Positions 5,334-20,762 of a DNA stretch of 64,000 bases are shown one piece after another. Origin of the DNA: Rhodococcus sp. IEGM 1379 (GTDB lineage: Bacteria; Actinomycetota; Actinomycetes; Mycobacteriales; Mycobacteriaceae); NCBI RefSeq assembly GCF_030056815.1, contig NZ_JASHKR010000019.1, positions 1 through 64,000 on the forward strand, in the 5' to 3' direction. How positions within the stretch are numbered: position 1 is the stretch's first letter; the number at the start of each line of letters is the position of its first letter. Both the position numbers and the translations under genes were made by a program. The notes beneath the pieces are model-generated. The model was not told the DNA's origin and searched no databases. It worked only from the letters and a program-made list of their open reading frames with translations.

Positions 5334-5939
5334 TTACCGACTCGAGGGGGACGGGACTGTAGAACGAGGCAACAATCCTTGGGTTCGAAGCGCGTGGAGT
5401 GACGGTGCTGCCGCATCTTTTGTCGAGAGTTCGTAAGTCAGGGGGTTGCCCGCGCGGTCCGTCGTCGGCCAGGTGATGTTGAGTTCCGGGTCGAAGGGAT
5501 CGAGGTCGCGGTCGAACTCGGGGGAGTATTCGATGCTGCAGAGGTACATGACGGTCGATCCGTCTTCGAGAGACAAGATCGCATGTCCGAGTCCTTCGGA
5601 CAGGTAGACAGCTTTGCGGTCGACGTCGTCGATCAGTACCGAATCCCATTCGCCGAAGGTCGGAGACCCGACGCGTAAATCGACGACGACGTCGAGGAAT
5701 GCTCCTTTGACGCAGGTGACGTATTTAGCCTGCCCGGGTGGGTTGTCGGTGAAATGGATTCCGCGCAGGCTGCCGGCTGCGGAAACGGAGCAATTGGCTT
5801 GTGCCAGTTCGAGGGTTCGGCCGGTTACAGCGGTGAAGGCGGAGCTTTTGAACCATTCGAGGAAGACGCCGCGGTTGTCGCCGAACTGTTTGGGCGTGAT
5901 TTCCCAGGCTCCGGCGATTTTCAGTGCACGGATATCCAT
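5334..5939 (-). CDS. rmlC: dTDP-4-dehydrorhamnose 3,5-epimerase
   Basis: A 201-residue protein, the family's normal length. RmlC epimerises C3 and C5 of dTDP-4-keto-6-deoxyglucose, the third step of dTDP-L-rhamnose synthesis; rhamnose forms the linker between peptidoglycan and galactan. The catalytic His is residue 62 in SLRGIHF, and the cupin core continues through FLDVVVDLRVGSPTFGEW and EGLGHAILSLEDGSTVMYL. The ATG at 5939 lies 1 bp after the rmlA stop, so the two are coupled. rmlD is not in the window. Confidence 0.95.
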   Translation of the reverse strand: MDIRALKIAGAWEITPKQFGDNRGVFLEWFKSSAFTAVTGRTLELAQANCSVSAAGSLRGIHFTDNPPGQAKYVTCVKGAFLDVVVDLRVGSPTFGEWDSVLIDDVDRKAVYLSEGLGHAILSLEDGSTVMYLCSIEYSPEFDRDLDPFDPELNITWPTTDRAGNPLTYELSTKDAAAPSLHALRTQGLLPRSTVPSPSSR

Positions 5940-5940
5940 G

Positions 5941-7932
<1,992 letters not shown>

Positions 7933-7936
7933 CTGC

Positions 7937-9001
7937 TCAGGACTTGCTTGGATCGGGTACGCGGGAATGTTCGTGCACGAGGGCGTTCCGAAGAACTCGT
8001 GAACCGGCCAGTGCCGCTACTGCGCCTGCAAATACTTCGCAGAGGGTGAAGAGCAGCCTCGACGCCAGCGCGAGGCCGAGGGCGACGCCGGCATCCATGA
8101 AGGGCGACAGCGCTGCGACGATGACGGCTTCGCGGACGCCGATTCCGGATGGGACGACAAATACGAGGACACCCGCGCACATGCCGAGGGCGAGAGCGCC
8201 GATGCATTGGACGAGTCCGCGAATTTCGAAGCCGGCTGAACTCGACGCGAGTAGCCACAGTTGGATGCCGTAAAGCACCCAACTTGCTGCGCACCAGCCC
8301 AAGGCCAAGGCGATCTTGTGCATTGTCAGCGGCTTCTGGAGGGGTTCGCGACGCAGTAGTCGTAGTGCGAGGTTGACCAACCGAGTGAGCACCGGTGGGT
8401 AGGCGCAGAACAGCGCAATCGGTACCAGGATTATGACGCCGATGGCCGCTACCGTGCTGACCTCGAACAGAGCCGGTAAGCCGAACAATCCGACAACCAG
8501 TGCGGATGTGGTGCTCAATCCCACTGTGACCAGTACTGCGACAAATCCTGCCGCGCGGGAGACACCCGCGCGGCGTACCAGTTCGGTTTGAAGCACAAAG
8601 GCCCAGACACTGCCGGGAAGGTATTTACCCAGTTGGCCGACCAGATAACAGCGGGCGGCGTCGAAGGCAGGGATGGGTTGTTCGAGGGCGCCGAGTGCGT
8701 GTTGCCAGGACCGCACCGCGGCGCCCATGCCGAGGAAGATGAACAGCGAAGACGCGGCCAGTGTCCACCAGTTCAGTTCGGTGATCGTGCTCTTGACCTC
8801 GGACCATTGGGATTTCACGGCGAAGATGATCGCGATGATTATCCCAAGGGTGACGAGGACTTTGAATCCGTTGGCGAGGAGGCCGCGCAGAGCGTTCGGC
8901 TTGGCATCTGCGTCGTGTGCCTCGGCGCCCGCTTCGTTCGGCAAGGTGACTGCGTCGTCTGGCTTCTCGGGAAGGTCAGATTCGGGGAGGTTATTACTCA
9001 C
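7937..9001 (-). CDS. UPF0104 / LPG-synthase-flippase-like integral membrane protein
   Basis: About 354 residues. Some 45 acidic hydrophilic residues are followed by eight or so membrane segments typical of the lysyl-phosphatidylglycerol synthase TM region family (UPF0104). Visible motifs are GQLGKYLPGSVWAFVLQTEL, PSGIGVREAVIVAAL and ALASRLLFTLCEVFAG. Members without the synthase domain are membrane proteins found in envelope-glycan loci and suspected of lipid-linked-substrate transport. GTG 9001 was chosen because the longer frame overlaps the upstream lpxA-like gene, whose stop is 62 bp away on the same strand. The two are probably co-transcribed. No catalytic function can be read. Confidence 0.75.
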   Translation of the reverse strand: MSNNLPESDLPEKPDDAVTLPNEAGAEAHDADAKPNALRGLLANGFKVLVTLGIIIAIIFAVKSQWSEVKSTITELNWWTLAASSLFIFLGMGAAVRSWQHALGALEQPIPAFDAARCYLVGQLGKYLPGSVWAFVLQTELVRRAGVSRAAGFVAVLVTVGLSTTSALVVGLFGLPALFEVSTVAAIGVIILVPIALFCAYPPVLTRLVNLALRLLRREPLQKPLTMHKIALALGWCAASWVLYGIQLWLLASSSAGFEIRGLVQCIGALALGMCAGVLVFVVPSGIGVREAVIVAALSPFMDAGVALGLALASRLLFTLCEVFAGAVAALAGSRVLRNALVHEHSRVPDPSKS

Positions 9002-9063
9002 GTGCTTACAACTTCCCGCCCGTACGTCATTATGCAGACGATACCAACCGCCGCCGCCGATCC

Positions 9064-9780
9064 TTACGAGACCAGTGGCTTGTCTGCCCGTTCTCGCCAC
9101 CAGGTGAAGGCTTCCTGCAGAGATGCCGGAATTGTCGACAGTCCCTCAAAGGTTCCGGCAGCGTAGATGGCGGCGACCGCAGAGATGTCTTCCTCGGAGA
9201 TACCCGAGCGACTCATTCCGATCCGGTTGACGCCCTGCAGTGACACCGGATTGCCGAACGCCTTGGAGAAGGGCGGAACATCTTTGACCACGACTGTTCC
9301 CATACCGATCATGGACCCGGAGCCGATGACGCGTCGCTGGTGGGCGACGGTATGCATACCCAGGTTGACACCGTCTCCGACGCTGACGTGCCCGGCGAGC
9401 GTCGTTCCGGACGAGACGACGCATCGGTTACCGACCTGCACGTCGTGTTCGATTCCGACGCGGTTCATCAGGAAGCATTCGTCGCCGATTTCGGTGCGTC
9501 GTTCGCTGCCTTGATGAACAGTGCTCAGTTCACGGATTGTGGTTCGGGCACCGATCCGGATTCCCAGGCCGGCGCTGACGGACCATGAGATGGGGTGCAG
9601 GGCTCCGAGGATTTCCGGGGGCGCTCCCAGTACTACACCCGCGCCGATCCAGCAGTCGTCGCCGATTTCGAGTGGGCCGGTCAGAACCGCATTCGGACCG
9701 ATCGTGACACTGGTCCCGATTGAGACATCCGCACCTATCAGGGCGGTGGGGTGGATCTGGCAGTTCTTTCCGATAGGCAT
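9064..9780 (-). CDS. LpxA-like left-handed beta-helix acyltransferase (UDP-amino-sugar N/O-acyltransferase)
   Basis: A 238-residue hexapeptide-repeat acyltransferase that follows E. coli LpxA closely: PTALIGADVSIGTSVTIGPN, the RELSTVHQGS region, VGNRCVVSSGTTLAGHVSVG, and DVPPFSKAFGNPVSLQGVNR. The general-base His of LpxA (His125) is H112 in GIEHDV; His144 and His160 correspond to H131 and H147. LpxA His122 is Gly here, and the hydrocarbon-ruler position G173 is Met160. LpxA transfers a beta-hydroxyacyl chain from ACP to UDP-GlcNAc (or to the 3-amine of UDP-GlcNAc3N) in lipid A synthesis. Divergent from the aminotransferase and oxidoreductase genes, 108 bp away. The acyl donor and acceptor here are not known. 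Confidence 0.8.
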   Translation of the reverse strand: MPIGKNCQIHPTALIGADVSIGTSVTIGPNAVLTGPLEIGDDCWIGAGVVLGAPPEILGALHPISWSVSAGLGIRIGARTTIRELSTVHQGSERRTEIGDECFLMNRVGIEHDVQVGNRCVVSSGTTLAGHVSVGDGVNLGMHTVAHQRRVIGSGSMIGMGTVVVKDVPPFSKAFGNPVSLQGVNRIGMSRSGISEEDISAVAAIYAAGTFEGLSTIPASLQEAFTWWRERADKPLVS

Positions 9781-9888
9781 GTTGTTCGGGAATCCTCTCG
9801 CGGGGCTTTCGACGGCTTCGTTACCCTCAGTTGAATTGATACGGGAACTGTCGGTTCTCGATGCTTGCAACCTATCGGAGGTAACTCA

Positions 9889-10989
9889 GTGATCGCGATA
9901 TCCAGTATCTCGTTCGGAGAAGACGTCGAGCGCGAGGTGCTGGACACTCTGCGGTCCGGGATTGTCGCGCAGGGACCCAAGGTGAAGCGACTCGAGGACG
10001 AGTTCGCCGCTTTGGTGGGGACCGAGCACGCGGTGGCGGTGAACAACGGAACCACGGCTCTGATCGCTGCGCTCCAGGTGCAGGACTTGCAGCCGGGCGA
10101 TGAGGTTCTGACAACTCCGTTCACATTTGTCGCGACTTTGAATGCGATTCTGGAGGCCGGGGCGACGGCTAGGTTCGCCGATATCACCGAGGCTGATTTC
10201 AATCTTGATGCGGCGGCGGCAGCTGCGCGGATCAATGATCGTACGAAGGTTCTGATGCCGGTGCATCTGTACGGTCAGGCCGCCGATATGGGCGCGTTGA
10301 TGCCGTTGGCGGGCGAACATGGACTGTCTGTCGTCGAGGACGCTGCGCAGGCGCACGGTGCCACGTTCGACGGTCAGGGTGCCGGCAGTTTCGGGTTGGG
10401 ATGTTTTTCGTTCTACGCGACGAAGAATCTTACGACCGCCGAGGGCGGGATGATCACGACCAACGATGCTGTGACCGCCGATCGACTTCGGGTACTTCGT
10501 AACCAGGGTATGCGGGCGCGTTACCAGTACGAGATGGTCGGCCAGAACTATCGGATGACGGACCTGCAGGCGAGTTTGGCTCTGCCGCAGATGGGTTCGT
10601 ATATGCAGCAGGTCGAATCGCGTCGACGCAATGCGGAAGCTCTTCGCGCTGGTTTGAAAGACATTGCCGGACTGATTCTTCCGAGTGAACTGGCCGGACG
10701 AGGTCACGTGTGGCACCAGTTCACGCTGTTGCTGGCGGAGGATGCGCCCATCACGCGAGATCAGTTGAGTGAGCGTCTTGCCGCCAAGGACATCGGTAGC
10801 GGAATCTACTATCCGAAGGCGGTGTACGACTACGAGTGCTACCGGGAACATCCGCGGGTAATCATTGAGGAAACGCCGGTTGCCACGTCGGTAGCGGCGC
10901 GATGCCTGAGCATTCCGGTCCATGCAGCGTTGTCCGCAAGTGATGTCGATCAGATCGTTGCCGCAGTTCGCGGCGCTATGGAGGCCTGA
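9889..10989 (+). CDS. DegT/DnrJ/EryC1/StrS-family PLP sugar aminotransferase (GnnB-like)
   Basis: A 366-residue PLP-dependent nucleotide-sugar aminotransferase. The internal-aldimine Lys179 lies in FYATKNLTTAEGG and the pyridine-binding Asp151 in VEDAAQAHGA; HVWHQFTLLL and the C-terminal SIPVHAALSASDVDQI complete the family pattern. GTG 9889 has a strong CGGAGG site seven bases upstream, so the frame back to 9865 is not used. The stop is 2 bp before the Gfo/Idh oxidoreductase. The oxidoreductase-plus-aminotransferase pair is the arrangement of GnnA/GnnB (UDP-GlcNAc to UDP-GlcNAc3N) and also of WbpB/WbpE and other 3-amino-sugar pathways. Which sugar is made is inferred only. Confidence 0.9.
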   Translation: MIAISSISFGEDVEREVLDTLRSGIVAQGPKVKRLEDEFAALVGTEHAVAVNNGTTALIAALQVQDLQPGDEVLTTPFTFVATLNAILEAGATARFADITEADFNLDAAAAAARINDRTKVLMPVHLYGQAADMGALMPLAGEHGLSVVEDAAQAHGATFDGQGAGSFGLGCFSFYATKNLTTAEGGMITTNDAVTADRLRVLRNQGMRARYQYEMVGQNYRMTDLQASLALPQMGSYMQQVESRRRNAEALRAGLKDIAGLILPSELAGRGHVWHQFTLLLAEDAPITRDQLSERLAAKDIGSGIYYPKAVYDYECYREHPRVIIEETPVATSVAARCLSIPVHAALSASDVDQIVAAVRGAMEA

Positions 10990-10991
10990 AA

Positions 10992-11972
10992 ATGTCTGTG
11001 AGCAAGCCACGTATTGCACTTGTCGGCTCCGGCCAGATGGGTTCGCTGCACGCGCGCGTCATCGCGCAATCGGCATTGTGCGAGTTGGATCTGCTGATCG
11101 AGCCGCGTGAGGAGCAGGGCAAAGCCGTTGCCGAGCGGTTCAATACGCGCTGGGCTGCAGATTTCGACGACCTCGACGGTATCGATGCCGTGGTGATCGC
11201 CGCTGCGACTCCCGCGCACTACGAATTGGCCGGTCGGGTACTCGATCTGGGCAAGCCGGTTCTGGTGGAGAAGCCGCTGGCTGCGACGTACGAGCAGAGC
11301 GTTGATCTGGTGGAGCGTTCCCAGGCATCGGGTGTTCCGCTGATGTGTGGTCTGCTCGAGCGCTTCAACCCGGCCGTTCGCACGGCGCGGGAGTTCTCCG
11401 GTGATGTGTGGCAGGTCAACGGCATTCGTCATTCCCCGTTCGTATCGCGTATTCCGACGGGCGTTGCGACGGACCTGTTGATTCACGATATCGACTTGGC
11501 GATCGGCTTTGTGGGTTCCGAACCGAGTTTGGCGAAGGGGGAGTTCGGTTACTTCCATCCGACGTCTGTGCAGAACCGTTCGGAGGATTGCGCGGATACC
11601 GTTCTGCGATTCAATTCTGGTGCGGTTGCCACGATTTCGGCCAGCCGGATCAGCCATCGCAAGATTCGTCAGTTGTCGCTGCTCGAGGCTGATCGACTGA
11701 TCGAGATCGATCTGCTTCGTCGAGGCATCACGATCTACCGTCACATCGACGACAACATGCCTACCGATCGGGACGGCTACCAGCAGCAGACGGTCATCGA
11801 GATTCCGACGATCCGCTACAGCGATGAGCCCCTCGCGGCGCAGCTGACGCACTTCCTCGGATTAGTGCAGGGCACGGGTGACGCCGATGGTGAGCGGGCT
11901 TCGATTCTGCCCGCTCACCGTGCGGTTCACGAGGTTACGGAGTCTGCACTCGCAGCTGCAGTTTCTTCTTGA
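10992..11972 (+). CDS. Gfo/Idh/MocA-family NAD(P)-dependent sugar oxidoreductase (GnnA-like)
   Basis: A 326-residue dehydrogenase. The Rossmann fold starts with IALVGSGQMGSLHARVI, the family's EKP motif is at residues 93-95 (VLVEKPLAATYE), and the active-site stretch is TDLLIHDIDLAIGFVG. It probably oxidises the C3 hydroxyl of a UDP-sugar so that the preceding aminotransferase can install an amine. Its start is 2 bp after that gene's stop. It converges with the YfhO-like gene and overlaps its 3' end by 46 bp, an unusually long convergent overlap. Confidence 0.9.
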   Translation: MSVSKPRIALVGSGQMGSLHARVIAQSALCELDLLIEPREEQGKAVAERFNTRWAADFDDLDGIDAVVIAAATPAHYELAGRVLDLGKPVLVEKPLAATYEQSVDLVERSQASGVPLMCGLLERFNPAVRTAREFSGDVWQVNGIRHSPFVSRIPTGVATDLLIHDIDLAIGFVGSEPSLAKGEFGYFHPTSVQNRSEDCADTVLRFNSGAVATISASRISHRKIRQLSLLEADRLIEIDLLRRGITIYRHIDDNMPTDRDGYQQQTVIEIPTIRYSDEPLAAQLTHFLGLVQGTGDADGERASILPAHRAVHEVTESALAAAVSS

Positions 11973-14137
11973 TCAGCGCGCCGGTGTCGGTATGCCCAGA
12001 CGCCTTGGGACAAGGCTACGAGCAACCCGACGCCGGCGACGGTCCATCCGAATGAGCTTCCGGGGGGACTGAATTCGATGGTGAGGGTGGAGCCGTCGGC
12101 GGCGCTCGGCGGTAGGTTCACCTGTAGTAATCCACCGGGGCTGGCTTGGGTTTCCACTGTTTCTCCGTCGACGGTGGCGCTCCATCCGGGCCACGCGAGC
12201 AGCGCGAAGGTGATGGTGCCGGATCCGGTGTACTCGACGCTTTCTCGGGTATCCGTTGCGGCGCTGTCGCTTCGGATGTCGAGTCCTTCAGTGGCTGCGG
12301 ATACCCGTCCTTCGGGCCATTGGTGCCCGGCCTCGCGGTGACCGACCGTGACAAGGCGATCCGGTGCGACGGTCCAATCGCTCTCGGGGAGGGCGTCGAG
12401 TGCGTGCTTGCCGCCGTACGGTCCGGAGTTCTGAACGACGACGGTGTCGACGCGCATCGCGTCGAGCCACGACACTCCGGTTCCGGGTGATTCTGCGAGT
12501 AGTCGATCGACGGCGTCGGGGCATTTGACGCCGCCGTAGTAGTTGATGCACAACTCTTGGACGAAGTCGTTGTAGCTGATTCCGGCGTAGCTGTTGACTG
12601 CGTCGACACCGGCGGGCTGCCAGGCGTTTCCGAAGAGAAGGTCACCCCAGTGGCCGGTCGGGTTGTCGGTGGGGATGAACTCCGGGTCTGCGATCGCGAA
12701 TGTGGTTCCCTGGTAGCGATCTTCGAATTTCGATTCGAGAAAGGCGACTTGCCGCGGGAATTTCCAGGGGGTCACGTTGTAGTTGCCGGTAAACCAGAAG
12801 TTGGTCTGGGCGCTGAGAACGACGATGATTCCGGCAGCGAGGACGCCGGCGAGGAATCGTGGTTTCCGGTAGGCCACGATCAGCGCGATGGCGGTCAAGG
12901 CTACGGTGATGACGAGCGATGCGAAGTGAATGCCGATGTCCTCGGGGACATTCGACCACGCGAGGTAGAACTGGAGTGCGAGTAGTCCCGCAGTGATGAC
13001 GGCTCTCGGCCGGATGCGGTCACGGTGCAGACCTGCGGACAGTGCTACGGCAACAGCCACGATGACAGGTAGTTGCCCGTACTCGAGCAGGCGCGCCGGC
13101 CACCGGAACAGCCAGAGGTTGGACGGACCCAGCAGCAGTACGACGTAGATTCCGCCGAATGCGAGTAGTGAAACACTGTGGCGGCCGAGCTTTTTCAGCG
13201 AGTTCCACTGTATCCAGGGCGCAAGGGGGATCAGGAACCAAGCGAGGTACACCAGCGGAATTGTCATCGCCGGCACGCTGAATGCGGTTACGTACGGTTG
13301 GTTGGACGGACCCGACAGGTTGATCAGATCGCCGAGATCGGGGCGCAGTGACCCGTCGTTCGATATTCCTGACTGGGTACGAACGGATACACCGGTCGTG
13401 AAGAGCAGTGGTAGGTAGACGATCAGCGACATCATGATGATTGCCGTCGCGCTGACGAGCAAGGACTTGATGCTGCGCCCGCGCTTGACGGCGATGCATT
13501 CCGCGATGACCGCGACGTAGACGACCGCGACACCGACTGCTCCGTACGGATTGCCGGTAGTCATGGCGAGGTACCCGAACAGGATCGGTACTAACGGGTT
13601 CACACGTCCGAGCGCACTGGCGCGGGTAGACCACCACACGTGCGGGATCCAGGCGAACGCGATCAGTCCGGACGCCCAACTGGAGGCGTCGAAGTACAAG
13701 GTGTATCCGGCAAACGGCATTGCCAAGCCGGCGATGAATGCCATTGACCTGTTGGCGCCGTATTGCCGCGCGACGAGGTAGACGCCCACTGCAAGAATCG
13801 CCATGAATTGCATTTTGACAAGAGTGATTCCGATGGCGAGATTCGGAATGAGTGCGATGGCAACGGAATCCAGCAGGATCACGGGATTGTATGTTCCGTA
13901 GAGGGCTTCGGCGGTGACGTTTCCGCCGGCCCACAGTTCGGGAATCAGCGTCGGCCAAGAACCGGAGAGGATGCGCTCGCCGATCGTGTGCCAGCCGGGT
14001 GTGAATGCAGCAGCGCTGTCGTCCCAGTAGTAGAACCACTTGTTGGAGATCAGTGGGATCGCCGCGACGACGGACACAAGGGCGGCCAGAAGTATCGGTG
14101 GTACTACACGGTGGGCAAGCGGCAGGTCAGATTTCAC
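11927..14137 (-). CDS. Large multi-spanning membrane protein, YfhO/GT-C-like (putative polyprenyl-phosphate-sugar-dependent glycosyltransferase)
   Basis: About 736 residues. Twelve or so membrane segments are followed, from about residue 480, by an extracytoplasmic region of about 230 residues and a last membrane helix (FGWTVAGVGLLVALSQGVWA). The first extracellular loop has the paired acidic residues of GT-C folds (YYWDDSAAAFTPGWHT) and then GGNVTAEALYGTYNPVILL, as in YfhO-type proteins. The late domain carries LLAWPGWSATVDGE, common in YfhO-like transferases. B. subtilis YfhO, with a GT2 and a GtrA-like flippase, adds GlcNAc to lipoteichoic acid. The GTG at 14137 is tentative. Divergent from the GT2 gene at 104 bp. 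The function is inferred. Confidence 0.65.
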   Translation of the reverse strand: MKSDLPLAHRVVPPILLAALVSVVAAIPLISNKWFYYWDDSAAAFTPGWHTIGERILSGSWPTLIPELWAGGNVTAEALYGTYNPVILLDSVAIALIPNLAIGITLVKMQFMAILAVGVYLVARQYGANRSMAFIAGLAMPFAGYTLYFDASSWASGLIAFAWIPHVWWSTRASALGRVNPLVPILFGYLAMTTGNPYGAVGVAVVYVAVIAECIAVKRGRSIKSLLVSATAIIMMSLIVYLPLLFTTGVSVRTQSGISNDGSLRPDLGDLINLSGPSNQPYVTAFSVPAMTIPLVYLAWFLIPLAPWIQWNSLKKLGRHSVSLLAFGGIYVVLLLGPSNLWLFRWPARLLEYGQLPVIVAVAVALSAGLHRDRIRPRAVITAGLLALQFYLAWSNVPEDIGIHFASLVITVALTAIALIVAYRKPRFLAGVLAAGIIVVLSAQTNFWFTGNYNVTPWKFPRQVAFLESKFEDRYQGTTFAIADPEFIPTDNPTGHWGDLLFGNAWQPAGVDAVNSYAGISYNDFVQELCINYYGGVKCPDAVDRLLAESPGTGVSWLDAMRVDTVVVQNSGPYGGKHALDALPESDWTVAPDRLVTVGHREAGHQWPEGRVSAATEGLDIRSDSAATDTRESVEYTGSGTITFALLAWPGWSATVDGETVETQASPGGLLQVNLPPSAADGSTLTIEFSPPGSSFGWTVAGVGLLVALSQGVWAYRHRRADQEETAAASADSVTS

Positions 14138-14241
14138 TATGTGCTTTCGTCGTCGAGTAGGTGGCTGGGCCGTGGCCTGTTGCTCGGAGCGTAGTATTCC
14201 GACGAGTTCGAACTGCAGTCGGGGAAGAAGGAGATCGGTAC

Positions 14242-15036
14242 GTGGTGACATCGCGGACGGAACCTGTTCGCGGGGAATCAGCTGCTCCGGAACTGTCGGT
14301 AATCATTCCTGCGTACAACTCGGGAGCGGTACTGGAGTCGACGGTCAAGCAGTTTGCCGAGTACTTCAGTGGCCGTCAGGTCGAGATCATCGTTGTAGAG
14401 AACGGTTCCACCGACAACACCGCAGATGTGTGCGGTGCGTTGTCGAAGGCATGGGCGTGGCCGGGTGTGACGTTCCATCCGATGAGCAGCGACAAGGGGA
14501 TGGGCGCGGCCTTGCGGGCCGGAACCCTCGCCTCCCGCGGACAGCGGGTATTGCTCACCGCTGACGATCTGCCGTTCGGTTTCGGTGACATCGAAGGCGC
14601 CGACCGCGTCATGGCGGAGCTCGGATCCATTCCCCCGGCGGTCATCGGCTCGAAGGCGCATGCGCAGTCCGAGGTGGAACGTGGTCTCCTGCGTGTCGTG
14701 ATGACCGGCGGATTCGCGACCCTTCGACGGGTGGTTCTGGGTACCCGGACCGGCGATCCGCAGGGAACGTTCATCGTCGACGGAACTTTGCTGCGTCGTA
14801 TCGCGTCGGGACTGTCGGAACAGGGATTCCTGTTCACGACAGAACTGGACTACGCGCTCGAATTGGCGGGAATCCGTCCTGTCGAGGTACCGATTCGGTT
14901 GAGTGACGACCACCTTGCTCATGCGAGCCGTATTTCACCGAAGGACGTTCTTCAGATGGCGAAGGGCTTGGTGTCCCTTCGCCGACGTAAGGCCGAGCTT
15001 CGAGATGCGGCGACGCGAGCAGCATCTGCCGGCTGA
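14242..15036 (+). CDS. GT2 family glycosyltransferase, polyprenyl-phosphate-sugar-synthase-like
   Basis: A 264-residue GT-A transferase of the dolichyl-phosphate-mannose/glucose synthase type: ELSVIIPAYNSG at the N-terminus, VVENGSTDNTADVC, KGMGAALRAGTLASRG, then TADDLPF at the metal-binding DXD position. The stretch TGDPQGTFIVDG parallels the GDxQCGFK region of Dol-P-sugar synthases. No C-terminal membrane helices are present, so it would be a soluble or peripheral enzyme. GTG 14242 follows AAGGAG by nine bases. Its partner may be the divergent YfhO-like protein; glfT2 follows at 61 bp on the same strand. The sugar donor is unknown. Confidence 0.75.
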   Translation: MVTSRTEPVRGESAAPELSVIIPAYNSGAVLESTVKQFAEYFSGRQVEIIVVENGSTDNTADVCGALSKAWAWPGVTFHPMSSDKGMGAALRAGTLASRGQRVLLTADDLPFGFGDIEGADRVMAELGSIPPAVIGSKAHAQSEVERGLLRVVMTGGFATLRRVVLGTRTGDPQGTFIVDGTLLRRIASGLSEQGFLFTTELDYALELAGIRPVEVPIRLSDDHLAHASRISPKDVLQMAKGLVSLRRRKAELRDAATRAASAG

Positions 15037-15097
15037 GTAAGTCTCACTGACCAGCGCAGACACCATTTCTTCGTTGTTTCGCGATACCCTGCGGGGC

Positions 15098-16972
15098 GTG
15101 GATACCGTGAATGAGACCGAAAACCAGTCCAATCCTGGAGTCGAGTTGATTTCCCACCGCGCGACGTCGGATCGACTCCTCGTGCAGCGTGGGCTATTCA
15201 CCGGAACGTCGCCGGTAGCCAGCGACGAGTTGTATGCCGTGACTAAGGTGGGAATGGTGACGCGGACGCGCTTCGAGTTGCGTCTTCAGCCCGGAGCCGT
15301 TGCGCATACCAACACATTCTTCGGAAGATTCCCGGCCAGCTACTGGCAGCGCTGGACCAACGTCACCGAGGTTACTGTTACCGCGCGTGTCGTGGCCGAG
15401 ACCACCTGCCGCATCCAGCTCCAGGCCTCCGATATCGGCGGGCATCGGCGCATCGTGACCAATGTCGTTGCTACGGGTAGCGAGACTGTCTCTTTGACCG
15501 CGCCGCTCGACACTTTTGTCGACGGTGGTGCCCTGTGGCTGCAGTTCGAGGCTCAGGGCGGCAATGCCGTGGTCGACGAAGTCGAGTGGACGGTGGCGTC
15601 GCCAGAAACGATTCGGCCGGTGGCGATTGCCATCTGCACGTTCAATCGCGCTGATGATTGTGCGCGCACTGTTGCTGCGCTGGCTTCGGACGATCGTGTC
15701 CTGGCCTTGCTCGACGCCTTGTACGTGGTTGATCAGGGAACTGATCCGGTCGAGTCGCGTGAGCTGTTCCAGGACGTGTCGAAGAAGTTCGGTTCGCGGT
15801 TGCATTACCTGCGCCAGGCGAACCTCGGCGGAGCCGGTGGTTTCACGAGGGGCCTGTACGAGGCTTCGGAAGCCGGACCGAATGCCGATGTGATCCTGAT
15901 GGACGACGACATTCTCTGTGAGCCCGAGTCGGTTCTGCGGTTGAGCGCGTTTTCGAACATGACGACGGAACCGGCGCTGATCGGCGCGCAGATGCTGTTC
16001 CTGTTCAATCCGGACTATCTGCTGGCATCGGGCGAACGCGTTGATTTGGGCACACTTCAGCGTGGTGTACCGACGGACGAGCACGGTGTCCGCAACACCA
16101 GTGTTCTCGAGAAGCTTCCGGAGCGTCGCGTCGACGCCGAATACAACGGTTGGTGGACGTGCCTGATCCCTGCCGAGGCCATTGAACGCATCGGTTTGCC
16201 GTTGCCGGTGTTTTTCCAGTGGGATGACGTCGAGTACAGCTTGCGGGCGGGCCGGGCGGGCATTCCCACCATCACGCTGCCCTCGGCTGCCGTCTGGCAT
16301 GCGGACTTCTACTGGAAGGACGTCGACGGGTTCGCCCATTACTTCAGTACTCGCAACGGTTTGATTACTGCTTCACTCGACCCCGGATTTGCGCCGAAGA
16401 CGTTGGCCAAGCAGTTGGCCCGCGACATTTCACATTCGATAGTCGGTTTGCAGTACGGTCTCGCGCACACACAGATTCGGGCTATCGAGGGATTCCTCGA
16501 AGGTCCCGCCGGATTGGCGGATGGTGGCCAGAAGGCGCTGGCTGCGATCAATCAGGAGCGAAAGCGGTTCCCGGAGACAGTGACTCGTCCGGCGTCCGAG
16601 TTGCCGAGCAGGTTGCCGATCCGCCGGGTGGCGCCAAGCCCGAAGCCGGGCCTGTGGACTGATCTTGTTCTCGCGAAACGTGCTGTGACACAGGCGCGTA
16701 ACCAGCTCGAGCGGGGTCCTGTCGCGATCTCGTACGAGGACGCACAGTGGTGGCATGTGGGCCGGTTCGATCATGTTTTTGTCACCGATGCGTCACAGGG
16801 CGGAGTGCGTGAGCGCCGGTTCGACAGCGAGAAGGCCGCTGAGATGAGCGGCCGTCTCGCCGGCGTGATCAAGCGCTTTTATGCCGAGGCGCCGAGTGTT
16901 GCTCAGGCGTTCATCAACGAGTTCCCGCAGCTCACCAGCCGCGAGAACTGGGCCCGCCTGTACGAGAAGTGA
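15098..16972 (+). CDS. glfT2: Galactofuranosyltransferase GlfT2 family
   Basis: About 624 residues, close to the 637 of M. tuberculosis GlfT2. An N-terminal beta-sandwich domain (FFGRFPASYWQRWTNVTEV) precedes the GT-A domain: VAIAICTFNRADDCARTV, ANLGGAGGFTRGLYEA, the metal site ILMDDDILCEPES, DAEYNGWWTCLIP, and FQWDDVEYSLRAGRAGIPT with the WDD acceptor-site acid, then AVWHADFYWKD. GlfT2 polymerises the galactan with alternating beta-1,5 and beta-1,6 Galf. The start could be GTG 15098 or GTG 15107. The usual neighbour glf is not in the window, so a paralogue with another Galf role cannot be excluded. Confidence 0.85.
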   Translation: MDTVNETENQSNPGVELISHRATSDRLLVQRGLFTGTSPVASDELYAVTKVGMVTRTRFELRLQPGAVAHTNTFFGRFPASYWQRWTNVTEVTVTARVVAETTCRIQLQASDIGGHRRIVTNVVATGSETVSLTAPLDTFVDGGALWLQFEAQGGNAVVDEVEWTVASPETIRPVAIAICTFNRADDCARTVAALASDDRVLALLDALYVVDQGTDPVESRELFQDVSKKFGSRLHYLRQANLGGAGGFTRGLYEASEAGPNADVILMDDDILCEPESVLRLSAFSNMTTEPALIGAQMLFLFNPDYLLASGERVDLGTLQRGVPTDEHGVRNTSVLEKLPERRVDAEYNGWWTCLIPAEAIERIGLPLPVFFQWDDVEYSLRAGRAGIPTITLPSAAVWHADFYWKDVDGFAHYFSTRNGLITASLDPGFAPKTLAKQLARDISHSIVGLQYGLAHTQIRAIEGFLEGPAGLADGGQKALAAINQERKRFPETVTRPASELPSRLPIRRVAPSPKPGLWTDLVLAKRAVTQARNQLERGPVAISYEDAQWWHVGRFDHVFVTDASQGGVRERRFDSEKAAEMSGRLAGVIKRFYAEAPSVAQAFINEFPQLTSRENWARLYEK

Positions 16973-16975
16973 TTC

Positions 16976-17803
16976 TCACCGGATTGCTCTGGCAATGACC
17001 TGCTCGTTGTCGACGGTGTATCCGACGTACTCGAACGAGATGCCGGTGCGTGTGACGAATTCCGTCCACGCCCGGTACTCGTGGTGTTGCCATCCGGGGT
17101 AGTTGAAGAACTCGTCGAATACCACGATCGACCCGGGAACGAGACGGTCACCGAGCAGATCGAGCACGGTTTTGGTGGACGAGTAGAGGTCCGCGTCGAG
17201 GTGAAGGAACGCGACGGGGCCGGTTTCCTGTTCGAGGAACGACGGCAGTGTTTCTTCGAACAGTCCTGGAACAAGTTGCGCCCCTGGCACTTCGGGAATC
17301 GAGTCCTGGGCGAATTCGCCCACCGGGAATCCGGTACGCCAAGTTTCGGGTAAGCCGGAGAACACGTCGAAGCCCGCGACGGTTCCTTCGCGTTCGCGAA
17401 ACTCGTCGGCGATGATCTTTAGCGTTGTTCCGCTGGCGACACCGAACTCTAGGGCCATGCCCGGAGTCTCGACCAAATTCAATGCGTGCCGCAGTGTGTC
17501 GTGCGGATGCCCGAACGTCTCGACTACACGCATGTTCTCCAGGATGAACGCCGCGCTCGACGCCGTTGCTTCCAGATCGACCGCGTAGGCGAGATCGCGG
17601 CGTTGACGAAATTCCAGCTCGTCGATCCTGGATCTGAGGCCCGCAATGTCCTTGCGGGCCTCAGCGACTTCATCGCGTGAGTGTGTCAGTGCATCGAGCA
17701 CCCGATGGAAGCGGTCGTCATTGCGCTTGTCAACGTCCTCCACCACCTCGGATACTGCACGTTGAACCTTGGTCCTGGCATTGGAGCGGAACTGCTCGAA
17801 CAT
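16976..17803 (-). CDS. SAM-dependent methyltransferase with N-terminal coiled coil
   Basis: A 275-residue protein. Residues about 1-75 are charged and helical (coiled-coil-like, with repeated Arg/Asp/Glu). A class I methyltransferase domain follows: the SAM-binding ALEFGVASGTTLKIIADEF, VAGFDVFSGLPETWR, and the TylF/macrocin-type metal-binding region HLDADLYSSTKTVLDLL with FDEFFNYPGW. Proteins of this type O-methylate sugars. It converges with glfT2 (3 bp apart) and sits in the envelope-glycan region, so a glycan or glycolipid substrate is likely but not shown. Confidence 0.75.
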   Translation of the reverse strand: MFEQFRSNARTKVQRAVSEVVEDVDKRNDDRFHRVLDALTHSRDEVAEARKDIAGLRSRIDELEFRQRRDLAYAVDLEATASSAAFILENMRVVETFGHPHDTLRHALNLVETPGMALEFGVASGTTLKIIADEFREREGTVAGFDVFSGLPETWRTGFPVGEFAQDSIPEVPGAQLVPGLFEETLPSFLEQETGPVAFLHLDADLYSSTKTVLDLLGDRLVPGSIVVFDEFFNYPGWQHHEYRAWTEFVTRTGISFEYVGYTVDNEQVIARAIR

Positions 17804-19062: not shown

Positions 19063-19959
19063 TTAACTCGGACGTTCGAATCGCTCTTGTCGGCCGAGTT
19101 TGCGTAGGCGCATCCACTCGCGGAGGCCGGCGGGGTCGCGGCGAGTGATCAGGAAGTACCAGCCGAACCGAATCCATTCCTGCGGAAGCAGTTTGCGCAT
19201 TCCGGGTTGGGAGAGGATGTATCCGCGGTTGCGGTAAGTGAAGTAGCGCTTCGTCTCGTTGTCCGGGTACTGGGTGTGCATCCGGCCACCGAGGATCGGC
19301 TTGAATTCGTCGGCGCCGTTTGGATGGACGTAGGCGGTCTGCAAGCAGGTGCCGAATTTCAGGCCGGACCGCACGAGGCGACGATGCACTTCCACTTCGT
19401 CGCCGCGGACGAACAGGCGGAGATCCGGGACGCCGACGGCGTCGATCGCGTCGGCAGTGAACAGCGCGCCGTTGAAGAGGGATGCGATTCCGGGCAAGAG
19501 GTCTTCGGAGCCCAGTTCGCTACGCAGACGCCGCCATTCCACGCCGCGGCGTAGTGGGAACGCGAGGCGGTCGGGGTTGTCGATGTCGCAGACGACGGGT
19601 GAGACCTCGGCGAGATTGTGCCGAATCGCGCAGTCGAGAAGGGTTTCCAGGACGTCCGGACCCTCGGGACGACCGTCGTCATCGGCGAGCCATACCCGAT
19701 CTGCGCCCAGTGACAGTGCGTACAAAATGCCCAGGGCAAATCCTCCGGCACCGCCGAGGTTGTGCTTGGAACCGATGTAACTTGTGGGCAGCGCGGCATT
19801 CTCGACGAGTTCGCGAACTGCGTCTTCGTCGGCGTTGTCGATGACGACGAGGTGATCGAGCGGCCGAGACTGGGTGCTGAGAACCTTCAAGGATTCGGCC
19901 AGCAGTTCACGACGCTTGTGCGTGACGACAACCCCGATAATTTTTTCGGGCGCGCTCAC
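19063..19959 (-). CDS. glfT1: Galactofuranosyltransferase GlfT1 (galactan initiation)
   Basis: A 298-residue GT2 enzyme corresponding to M. tuberculosis Rv3782 in sequence and position. Motifs are IGVVVTHKRRELLAESL, HNLGGAGGFALGILYAL, the metal site WLADDDGRPEGPD, and the acceptor-side VRGDEVEVHRRLVRSG. GlfT1 adds the first two galactofuranose units to the rhamnose-containing decaprenyl linker. Its start overlaps the 3' end of wzt by four bases (ATGA), so it is the last gene of a wzm-wzt-glfT1 operon. Confidence 0.92.
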   Translation of the reverse strand: MSAPEKIIGVVVTHKRRELLAESLKVLSTQSRPLDHLVVIDNADEDAVRELVENAALPTSYIGSKHNLGGAGGFALGILYALSLGADRVWLADDDGRPEGPDVLETLLDCAIRHNLAEVSPVVCDIDNPDRLAFPLRRGVEWRRLRSELGSEDLLPGIASLFNGALFTADAIDAVGVPDLRLFVRGDEVEVHRRLVRSGLKFGTCLQTAYVHPNGADEFKPILGGRMHTQYPDNETKRYFTYRNRGYILSQPGMRKLLPQEWIRFGWYFLITRRDPAGLREWMRLRKLGRQERFERPS

Positions 19960-20762
19960 GGGTTGTTCTCCCGGGCCATGTCCCGAATGACGTGGCGCAC
20001 GTGGTCGGCAGCGTCGTCACCTTCGTAGGCGCGGACGACGTCTTCGATGTCGCCTTGCATGCGGATCTGGCCGTGGTCGACCCACATCGCGCTGTTGCAG
20101 AGTTGGGCCAGGAACTCGTTGGAGTGGCTCGCGAAAACCAGGATGCCGGAGCGTTCCACCAGCTTCTGCAGGCGGATGCGGGCTTTCTTCATGAATTCTG
20201 CGTCGACGGCGCCGATACCTTCGTCGAGCAGCAGGATCTCGGGATCGATGCTGGTGACGACGCCCATGGCGACGCGTACGCGCATGCCGGTGGAGTAGGT
20301 GCGCAGCGGCATCGAGAGGTATTCGCCGAGTTCGGTGAAGTCGGCGATCTCATCCATTTTTGCGAGCATCTGCTTGCGGGTCTGGCCGAGGAACAGGCCG
20401 CGGATGATGATGTTCTCGTAGCCGGAGATTTCAGGGTCCATGCCGACGCCGAGGTCGAAGACGGGGGCGACACGTCCGCGGATGCTGGCCGTTCCGCGGG
20501 TCGGTTCGTAGATGCCGGAGAGCAAGCGCAGCAGCGTGGATTTGCCAGCGCCGTTGTGGCCGACCAGTCCGATGCGGTCGCCTTCTTTCAGCGTCATCGT
20601 GATGTCGCGGAGTGCTTCGACGACGACGACGTCGGAGTCGTTGCGGCCGATGGATCCGCCGGCTTTGCCGAGGAATGCCTTCTTGAGTGAACGCGATTTG
20701 GCGTCGAAGATCGGGAAGTCGACGCACGCGTTCTGCGTGTGGATGCTGACTGGCTGACTCAT
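19956..20762 (-). CDS. wzt: Galactan ABC exporter, ATP-binding subunit
   Basis: A 268-residue ABC ATPase like M. tuberculosis Rv3781. Walker A is GHNGAGKST, the Q-loop region follows, the signature is TYSTGMRVRVAMGV, and Walker B is EILLLDEGIGAVD. The long insertion before Walker A (SRSLKKAFLGKAGGSIG) is typical of O-antigen-type ATPases (Wzt). With Wzm it moves the lipid-linked galactan precursor across the membrane before arabinosylation. Overlaps glfT1 by 4 bp and follows wzm at 9 bp. Confidence 0.93.
   Translation of the reverse strand: MSQPVSIHTQNACVDFPIFDAKSRSLKKAFLGKAGGSIGRNDSDVVVVEALRDITMTLKEGDRIGLVGHNGAGKSTLLRLLSGIYEPTRGTASIRGRVAPVFDLGVGMDPEISGYENIIIRGLFLGQTRKQMLAKMDEIADFTELGEYLSMPLRTYSTGMRVRVAMGVVTSIDPEILLLDEGIGAVDAEFMKKARIRLQKLVERSGILVFASHSNEFLAQLCNSAMWVDHGQIRMQGDIEDVVRAYEGDDAADHVRHVIRDMARENNP

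Follow-up and report, generated by a model that had tools for sequence, protein, structure and literature searches.

A conserved six-gene cassette with an LpxA-like acyltransferase in the arabinogalactan region of Rhodococcus, and a candidate pathway to an N-acylated amino sugar

The stretch of DNA analysed here, called the window, comprises 64,000 nucleotides of Rhodococcus sp. IEGM 1379 (family Mycobacteriaceae; contig NZ_JASHKR010000019.1, positions 1 to 64,000), and the system in question is a cassette of sugar and membrane genes around an LpxA-like acyltransferase gene. The acyltransferase, LPXA, is a protein of 238 amino acids (aa) with an LpxA-like left-handed beta-helix, encoded on the minus strand at 9064..9780 (ATG at 9778-9780, stop at 9064). 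Its frame stays open to a TTG at 9870, and the part conserved in relatives starts near the ATG. A divergent intergenic region of 108 bp (9781..9888) separates LPXA from DEGT, a sugar aminotransferase of the DegT/DnrJ/EryC1/StrS class for which a GnnB-like role is proposed (9889..10989, plus strand, 366 aa; start GTG at 9889 with GGAGG upstream, stop at 10987-10989). GFO, a Gfo/Idh/MocA NAD-dependent sugar dehydrogenase with a proposed GnnA-like role, begins 2 bp past the DEGT stop (10992..11972, plus strand, 326 aa, ATG at 10992). An original prediction, made from the letters of the window, had described this arrangement and equated the trio with GnnA, GnnB and LpxA, serving an envelope glycan other than lipid A. 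Its coordinates are confirmed here, and all 31 relatives fetched from other genomes keep LPXA divergent from DEGT and GFO on the DEGT strand, with LPXA-DEGT gaps of 104-191 bp (starts picked by script).

Three further genes extend the cassette beyond the trio. FLIP (7937..9100, minus strand), the same-strand 3' neighbour of LPXA, is a flippase-like membrane protein of the PF03706 (LPG_synthase_TM) family and a predicted flippase. GTC (11927..14251, minus strand, 774 aa) is a polytopic GT-C glycosyltransferase, and GT2 (14245..15036, plus strand; start provisional, frame open from 14161) is a family 2 glycosyltransferase, predicted to act as a polyprenyl-phosphate sugar synthase. The six genes are sited between rmlB and a GlfT2-like gene; their GC content, like that of the GlfT2 gene, is 0.60-0.62 (0.61 in the window).

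FLIP, LPXA, DEGT and GFO are present in 31/31 relatives, and GTC and GT2 lie within the fetched stretch in 30 of them, the GTC gene of the remaining locus (L039) being found about 3 kb beyond the stretch end. Both rmlB and GlfT2 flank the cassette in 28/31 relatives; within the DNA fetched, GlfT2 was not seen in L039 and L040, nor rmlB in L054. The prediction had called for a survey of co-occurrence across genomes, and its outcome points to more than chance: LPXA occurs in 32/301 genomes of the family (own included; 3/31 genera), GFO is found in exactly those 32 genomes, and 20/28 genomes of the genus carry LPXA (own included). A scan of named genomes likewise found DEGT, GFO, LPXA and FLIP together in 21/21 Rhodococcus-group loci (L083-L102, L106), which include Rhodococcus opacus, jostii, wratislaviensis, qingshengii, globerulus and ruber, as well as Prescottella defluvii and two Rhodococcoides species. 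Compared with the window, the 31 relatives show median identities of 79% for FLIP, 81% for DEGT and 79% for GFO, against 59% for LPXA, 59% for GT2 and 49% for GTC. Because of this difference the sugar core seems fixed, while the acyl and transfer steps seem to vary. In one relative, two genes lie between FLIP and LPXA, one sulfate permease-like and the other ricin-B-lectin-like (L044:5333-9168).

Hexapeptide repeats of the left-handed beta-helix type were recognised in LPXA by PF00132 (91 bits, cut-off 27). A match to PF13720 (40.6 bits, cut-off 24.5), which spans only positions 1-47 of 82, is the sole one in the genome, and PF13720 was found in 5/396 genomes of the phylum, own included. To define a profile, LPXA was aligned with 27/31 relatives (alignment A1; L034, L048, L051 and L057 omitted as near copies). 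The 18 best matches of this profile in the PDB are all named LpxA or UDP-N-acetylglucosamine (UDP-GlcNAc) acyltransferase and score 103-149 bits, against 57-77 bits for LpxD and at most 60 bits for other acetyltransferases, among them VioB (56.5), QdtC (54.1), 3mqg, which we take to be WlbB (52.7), and a perosamine N-acetyltransferase (50.8). These scores rule out an ordinary sugar acetyltransferase of the WbpD/FdtC type, the outcome that the prediction had named as damaging to it. In direct scoring of LPXA, the NeuD model gives 116 bits compared with 167-180 bits for LpxA models. Equivalents of E. coli LpxA residues H125 (catalytic), H144, H160, Q161, N198 and R204, mapped on 2jf2, are invariant in 28/28 rows of A1. 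LPXA groups with LpxA in sequence, but it does not count as a strictly defined LpxA.

A tree was built from the window, 13/31 relatives, 11 other actinobacterial loci, 18 of the 26 loci L108-L133 and three PDB pieces. It splits 24 rows (window, Rhodococcus family, other actinobacteria and PDB entry 8e62) from 22 rows with support 96/97; the latter side holds lipid-A-type LpxA and two Eremiobacterota, the label lipid-A-type being based on likely LpxD/LpxC-like neighbours, judged by size, in a few loci and on similarity in the rest. Long branches make the placement of L176 and 8e62 unsure. A plasmid search with 8e62 gave three Sinorhizobium records only, at 31% identity. A mobile origin of LPXA was also considered and rejected; a plasmid search with LPXA returned 41 records, all below 60% identity, with 11 of the 15 records listed annotated lpxA.

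Differences from E. coli LpxA concern the residues Lys76, Glu200 and Arg205, none of which is kept in the 14 Rhodococcus-family rows, where position 76 is Gly in 14/14. Lys is found at this position in 0/26 rows outside the lipid-A-type set, and within that set in 8 of 18 loci, the other 10 having another residue. Among solved structures, some of them read by eye from alignments, the LpxA of E. coli and Pseudomonas aeruginosa have all three residues and that of Helicobacter pylori has Lys76. The Leptospira interrogans enzyme (3hsq, whose structure title mentions sugar nucleotide selectivity) has Gly at position 76 and has lost all three, as in LPXA. The Campylobacter jejuni enzyme (3r0s) has Ser at position 76 and lacks Glu200, with Arg205 retained. 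The last two enzymes presumably take the 3-amino derivative of UDP-GlcNAc (UDP-GlcNAc3N). Absence of Lys76 may therefore mark use of UDP-GlcNAc3N, a marker derived here from two LpxA that we take to be N-acylating, and hence from few enzymes. As a by-product, this gives a weakly based proposal for the feature of LpxA that separates amine from hydroxyl acceptors. The AlphaFold model of LPXA is poor (pLDDT 74.2, pTM 0.66). The 20 best rows of a structure search with it are LpxA, superposed at a root-mean-square deviation of 10-13 Å, while right-handed solenoids of the pectate lyase type fit at about 2.5 Å, so the winding of the model is probably wrong and no conclusion is based on it. WbpD/WlbB and 8e62 do not appear among the rows listed for this search, an absence without weight.

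GFO matches PF01408 (75 bits), and its best relative in the PDB by profile is 7bvj (120 bits; next 97), presumably Acidithiobacillus GnnA. In a single-sequence search, 3q2k, which we take to be WlbA, scores 23 bits. The GFO motifs EKP and HD are invariant in 22/22 rows (alignment A3 includes 20/31 relatives and L103). DEGT is certainly of the aminotransferase class: PF01041 matches with 383 bits, and the lysine of its motif, presumably the one that binds pyridoxal phosphate (PLP), aligns with that of 3bn1.

FLIP exceeds the PF03706 cut-off (74.8 bits against 33.4), and a simple threshold marks 6 hydrophobic segments in it; it also lies beside a trio in L103 (35%), a metagenome-assembled genome (MAG) of Bifidobacteriaceae. 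The predicted model of GTC shows a GT-C fold with the acidic D78 after the first membrane segment, and D78 is invariant in 30/30 rows (alignment A2 includes 21/31 trio relatives and 8/20 trio-less loci). GTC has a sub-threshold match to YfhO (21.2 bits, cut-off 28.5) and is 7-15% identical to the GT-C enzymes AftD, ArnT, AftA and oligosaccharyltransferases, from which it is expected to differ in donor. GT2 matches PF00535 with 57 bits and has no hydrophobic segment at the threshold. A second GTC homologue, 31% identical, is located on another contig of the same genome (G000:C169:45846-47945).

On both sides the cassette is bordered by genes of arabinogalactan synthesis, as the prediction had stated. 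On one side lie the dTDP-rhamnose genes rmlC (5334-6059, minus strand; named by position), rmlA (5941-6879, minus strand) and rmlB (6649-7932, plus strand; true start probably later), with rmlA and rmlB above the cut-offs of TIGR01207 (471 bits) and TIGR01181 (459 bits). On the other side is the gene for a GlfT2-like galactofuranosyltransferase (15074..16972, plus strand; PF19320 and PF17994 over cut-off), followed by a GT2 gene at 19063..19959 (minus strand; PF00535, 34 bits), which by synteny we take to be GlfT1-like, and by an ABC transporter pair on the minus strand (19956-20762, PF00005; 20772-21644, PF01061), presumably the Wzt-like and Wzm-like parts of a galactan exporter. The GlfT1-like protein is 57-75% identical to its match in 7/7 other family genomes searched.

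GTC reaches beyond the trio, with homologues in 109/301 family genomes (11/31 genera), that is, in all 32 trio genomes and 77/269 trio-less ones, including 6/8 trio-less genomes of the genus. It is beside GlfT2 in 17/20 trio-less loci, which were chosen for having a GTC homologue. Five trio-less loci were scanned (L063, L064, L065, L071, L077); they carry a different GT2 with ArnC or PgfS as best models, with an additional epimerase-like gene in L071 and L077 and a methyltransferase gene in L071. Given this mixture of partners beside GlfT2, the rmlB-glfT2 interval seems, by gene content, to accommodate one decoration module out of several, with sugar modules being exchanged. In seven loci of one genus (L055-L057, L059-L062), GTC identity to the window is 60-66% (five loci) or falls to 36-37% (two), while that of DEGT and GFO stays at 75-82%, so exchange of GTC does not seem to be tied to the trio. 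Two trio-less genomes encode Pentapeptide_2 (PF01469) proteins in the interval from rmlB to the GT2 gene (L063:5881-6561, L064:12584-13177).

In the class, the LPXA profile matches 7/394 genomes, own included, and outside the family 11 actinobacterial loci were found with LPXA (L103, L104, L135, L162, L163, L164, L172-L176). The full trio is present in seven of them (L103, L162, L163, L172, L173, L174, L175), with LPXA divergent from DEGT in L162, L172, L173 and L174. In L103 four genes run in one direction, in the order DEGT (truncated at the contig start), GFO, LPXA, FLIP. LPXA stands alone in L104, in L135 at a contig end, and in L164 on a 3.3-kb contig. The L164 protein is 30% identical to LPXA with a nearly full PF13720 match, its genome is 79% complete, and it could represent either a genuine LpxA or contamination.

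Several described systems are close to the cassette. In Acidithiobacillus and Leptospira, GnnA, GnnB and LpxA serve lipid A with GlcN3N. The likeness lies in the three enzyme classes, the LpxA-like sequence of LPXA, the best match of GFO to 7bvj and the loss of Lys76 as in the Leptospira and Campylobacter enzymes. The differences are that LPXA falls below the LpxA cut-offs and has a shortened C-terminal part, that the trio lies in an arabinogalactan region together with genes for FLIP, GTC and GT2, and that LpxC (PF03331) and LpxB (PF02684) gave no match in the genome of the window, which bears out the expectation of a bacterium without lipid A. WbpB, WbpE and WbpD belong to the Gfo/Idh, DegT and hexapeptide acyltransferase classes, as does the trio. 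According to the part of the source available, they make UDP-GlcNAc3NAcA by oxidising, aminating and N-acetylating C3 of a UDP-sugar (PMC10622841), the same three-step chemistry as proposed here. The cassette differs in that its genes, to which this comparison was confined, include no WbpA-like 6-dehydrogenase, and in that LPXA is LpxA-like (149 bits for the best LpxA against 52.7 for 3mqg).

For the later steps, the accessible text of PMC9671496 describes decoration of mycobacterial arabinogalactan with galactosamine (GalN) via polyprenyl-P-GalNAc and Rv3779, naming PpgS, Rv3632 and Rv3779 in mycobacteria and ppgS and cgp_0658 in C. glutamicum. As far as that text goes, both systems would use a UDP-amino sugar, a GT2 acting on polyprenyl phosphate, flipping, and outside transfer onto arabinogalactan; the cassette has another sugar module. 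Multi-component transmembrane glycosylation systems of Gram-positives, CsbB/GtcA/YfhO, are outlined in the part consulted of PMC8035078, and there as here (window and 30/31 relatives; flippase and donor roles predicted) donor glycosyltransferase, flippase and GT-C protein are encoded together. FLIP is of PF03706 and not GtrA, GT2 lacks a membrane segment, and the donor would be made by a dedicated trio; Wzx-type flippases are also named in the same part (PMC8035078), so a GtrA-type protein is not required. Searches of the open-licence literature, with subscription journals mostly outside and the papers listed judged by title, found no paper on an actinobacterial cassette of the GnnA/GnnB/LpxA type, and none of relevance for Rhodococcus with LpxA and a diamino sugar, for an arabinogalactan dideoxy sugar or for 8e62; the available portion of PMC8040287 does not mention LpxA.

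From the observed genes and families, the conservation of the cassette, the predicted GT-C fold and the absence of LpxC and LpxB, we infer every chemical step, the order of steps and the acceptor of the following pathway. GFO would oxidise C3 of UDP-GlcNAc to UDP-3-keto-GlcNAc, DEGT, with PLP, would aminate C3 to give UDP-GlcNAc3N, and LPXA would acylate the 3-amine to UDP-2-acetamido-3-acylamido-2,3-dideoxy-hexose. The acylated sugar would be moved by GT2 onto polyprenyl phosphate, helped across the membrane by FLIP and transferred outside by GTC onto arabinogalactan, as a side decoration of arabinan or galactan. A 3-N-acylated amino-sugar nucleotide as the product is highly probable, and the polyprenyl route with GTC is quite probable. 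UDP-GlcNAc is the likely substrate and arabinogalactan the acceptor that we moderately favour; these four judgements are not independent of one another. The pathway as a whole, from UDP-GlcNAc to a decorated arabinogalactan, is a tentative reading of the sequences with a little less than an even chance.

Several observations weigh against this pathway or against a plain equation with GnnA, GnnB and LpxA. LPXA misses the LpxA equivalog cut-offs (TIGR01852, 167.5 against 231 bits; NF003657, 179.6 against 226), and GFO misses that of its best NCBIfam model, NF040723 UDP-GlcNAc 3-dehydrogenase (123 bits against 450; an archaeal model by name). DEGT is closest in the PDB to perosamine synthases (227 bits), WbpE scoring 170. 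The chemistry of the original prediction is plausible, and the prediction is supported in part. In its favour are the LpxA-like nature of LPXA, the proximity of GFO to 7bvj and the arabinogalactan setting; a plain equation is opposed by the missed LpxA cut-offs, by the C-terminal part of LPXA, short and poor in basic residues, and by the nearest relatives of DEGT. In 18 genomes checked, GnnA-like genes (at least 140 bits) do not separate the LpxA types, being present in 7/9 genomes with non-Lys76 and 4/8 with Lys76 enzymes; in L127 (152 bits) the LpxA residue was unread. A DEGT match beside the GnnA-like gene was seen in 0/15 stretches fetched around such genes. The match of GT2 to PpgS is weak (NF058614, 25 bits, cut-off 370), and GTC is absent from 192/301 family genomes that should also make arabinogalactan. 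Finally, the surroundings of the GlfT1-like gene at six loci from other genera of the family (339 frames of at least 150 residues) gave no GTC-like protein, so a sequence kinship between GTC and Rv3779 is unsupported. One frame of L209 near the GlfT1-like gene has a weak LPXA-profile match (34 bits). In one further locus, a Gfo/Idh gene (32% to GFO) is placed directly before a Lys76-bearing LpxA, with no DEGT match in the locus (L114:6876-8774).

On the nature of the acyl group, acetyl or larger, the evidence is divided. LPXA could be an ordinary acetyl-CoA N-acetyltransferase, in which case the same trio would provide UDP-2,3-diacetamido-2,3-dideoxy-hexose, a sugar of a known type, for arabinogalactan; this has a little less than an even chance and, differing from the proposed pathway only in the acyl group, is otherwise compatible with it. 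The C-terminal part of LpxA docks acyl carrier protein (ACP) bearing the acyl group. Behind residue 195 (E. coli numbering) this part has 52-60 residues in the 14 Rhodococcus-family rows against 68-82 in the 18 lipid-A-type rows, and around 207-227 it contains 0-1 Lys/Arg in 13/14 of the former, with 3 in one, against 2-5 in the latter. Because this part is short and poor in Lys/Arg, acyl-ACP docking looks lost, which speaks for acetyl and against a plain GnnA/GnnB/LpxA equation. Position 173, which we take to be the chain-length ruler of LpxA, is Met in 13/14 Rhodococcus-family rows and Leu in one, so a long chain is not favoured, yet P. aeruginosa LpxA also has Met173, and the title of 5dg3 places a hydroxydecanoyl product with this enzyme. 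For L163 (L163:435-4715), an acyl or aminoacyl group bound to a carrier is indicated. Behind its LPXA relative (40%), and opposite DEGT-GFO, lie genes for a carrier protein of 79 aa (PF00550, 22.8 bits against a cut-off of 20.8), an AMP-binding enzyme and the acyl-protein synthetase LuxE; judged from these families, it is possible that they form an acyl-supply line for the acyltransferase.

The remaining alternatives concern the sugar, the acceptor and the origin of the genes. It is improbable, in our estimate, that the substrate is a different nucleotide sugar (for example dTDP-linked, GDP-linked or UDP-glucose) and the product a 3-acylamino sugar without the 2-acetamido group. The adjoining rmlA and rmlB and the perosamine synthase kinship of DEGT would fit this, as would L176 (L176:8531-12722), where an FdtA fusion protein and a DegT aminotransferase are encoded next to a distant LPXA relative, with no GFO match, in surroundings that resemble a dTDP-3-amino-sugar setting. 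A parallel is offered by NtdC and NtdA, a Gfo/Idh and a DegT enzyme acting on glucose 6-phosphate. Against it, the rml genes serve the linker rhamnose, GFO accompanies LPXA in 32/32 family genomes and is nearest to 7bvj, and the six cassette genes include no FdtA-type isomerase. That the sugar decorates lipoarabinomannan (LAM), a capsule or a glycolipid instead of arabinogalactan is considered rather unlikely. GT-C enzymes of the arabinan pathway serve arabinogalactan and LAM alike, and trios outside the family lie amid other glycan genes (L103, L173); the flanking rmlB and GlfT2 in most relatives and the GTC homologues beside GlfT2 in trio-less loci favour arabinogalactan. The idea that the genes are a lipid A set surviving as a relict or introduced by contamination, for which the rarity of PF13720 in the phylum could be cited, is practically dismissed by the lack of LpxC and LpxB matches, the presence of LPXA in most genomes of the genus, and the conserved synteny and active-site residues.

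If the proposed pathway is true, an LpxA-type acyltransferase is at work in the envelope of bacteria without lipid A. Arabinogalactan decorations would also gain a new sugar, galactosamine being the one described in the available text of PMC9671496. The same text reports that genes of the corresponding modification system of C. glutamicum are needed by a phage (PMC9671496). Since the site between rmlB and glfT2 looks exchangeable and a C. glutamicum phage needs such genes, the cassette could help to study how the wall varies and which receptors phages use in Rhodococcus. A far-reaching extension would be that this site is an exchangeable decoration site, that in the 32/301 genomes the opening stage of lipid A synthesis has been redeployed as its module and makes a 2,3-diamino sugar with a non-acetyl N-acyl group, and that the wall polysaccharide carries acyl-amide chains differing among species; in this full form we consider it doubtful.

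A TylF-like methyltransferase gene (16976-17803) adjoins GlfT2 in the window. It was matched in 17/31 relatives, most of the other stretches stopping short of it, and its product could methylate a wall sugar.

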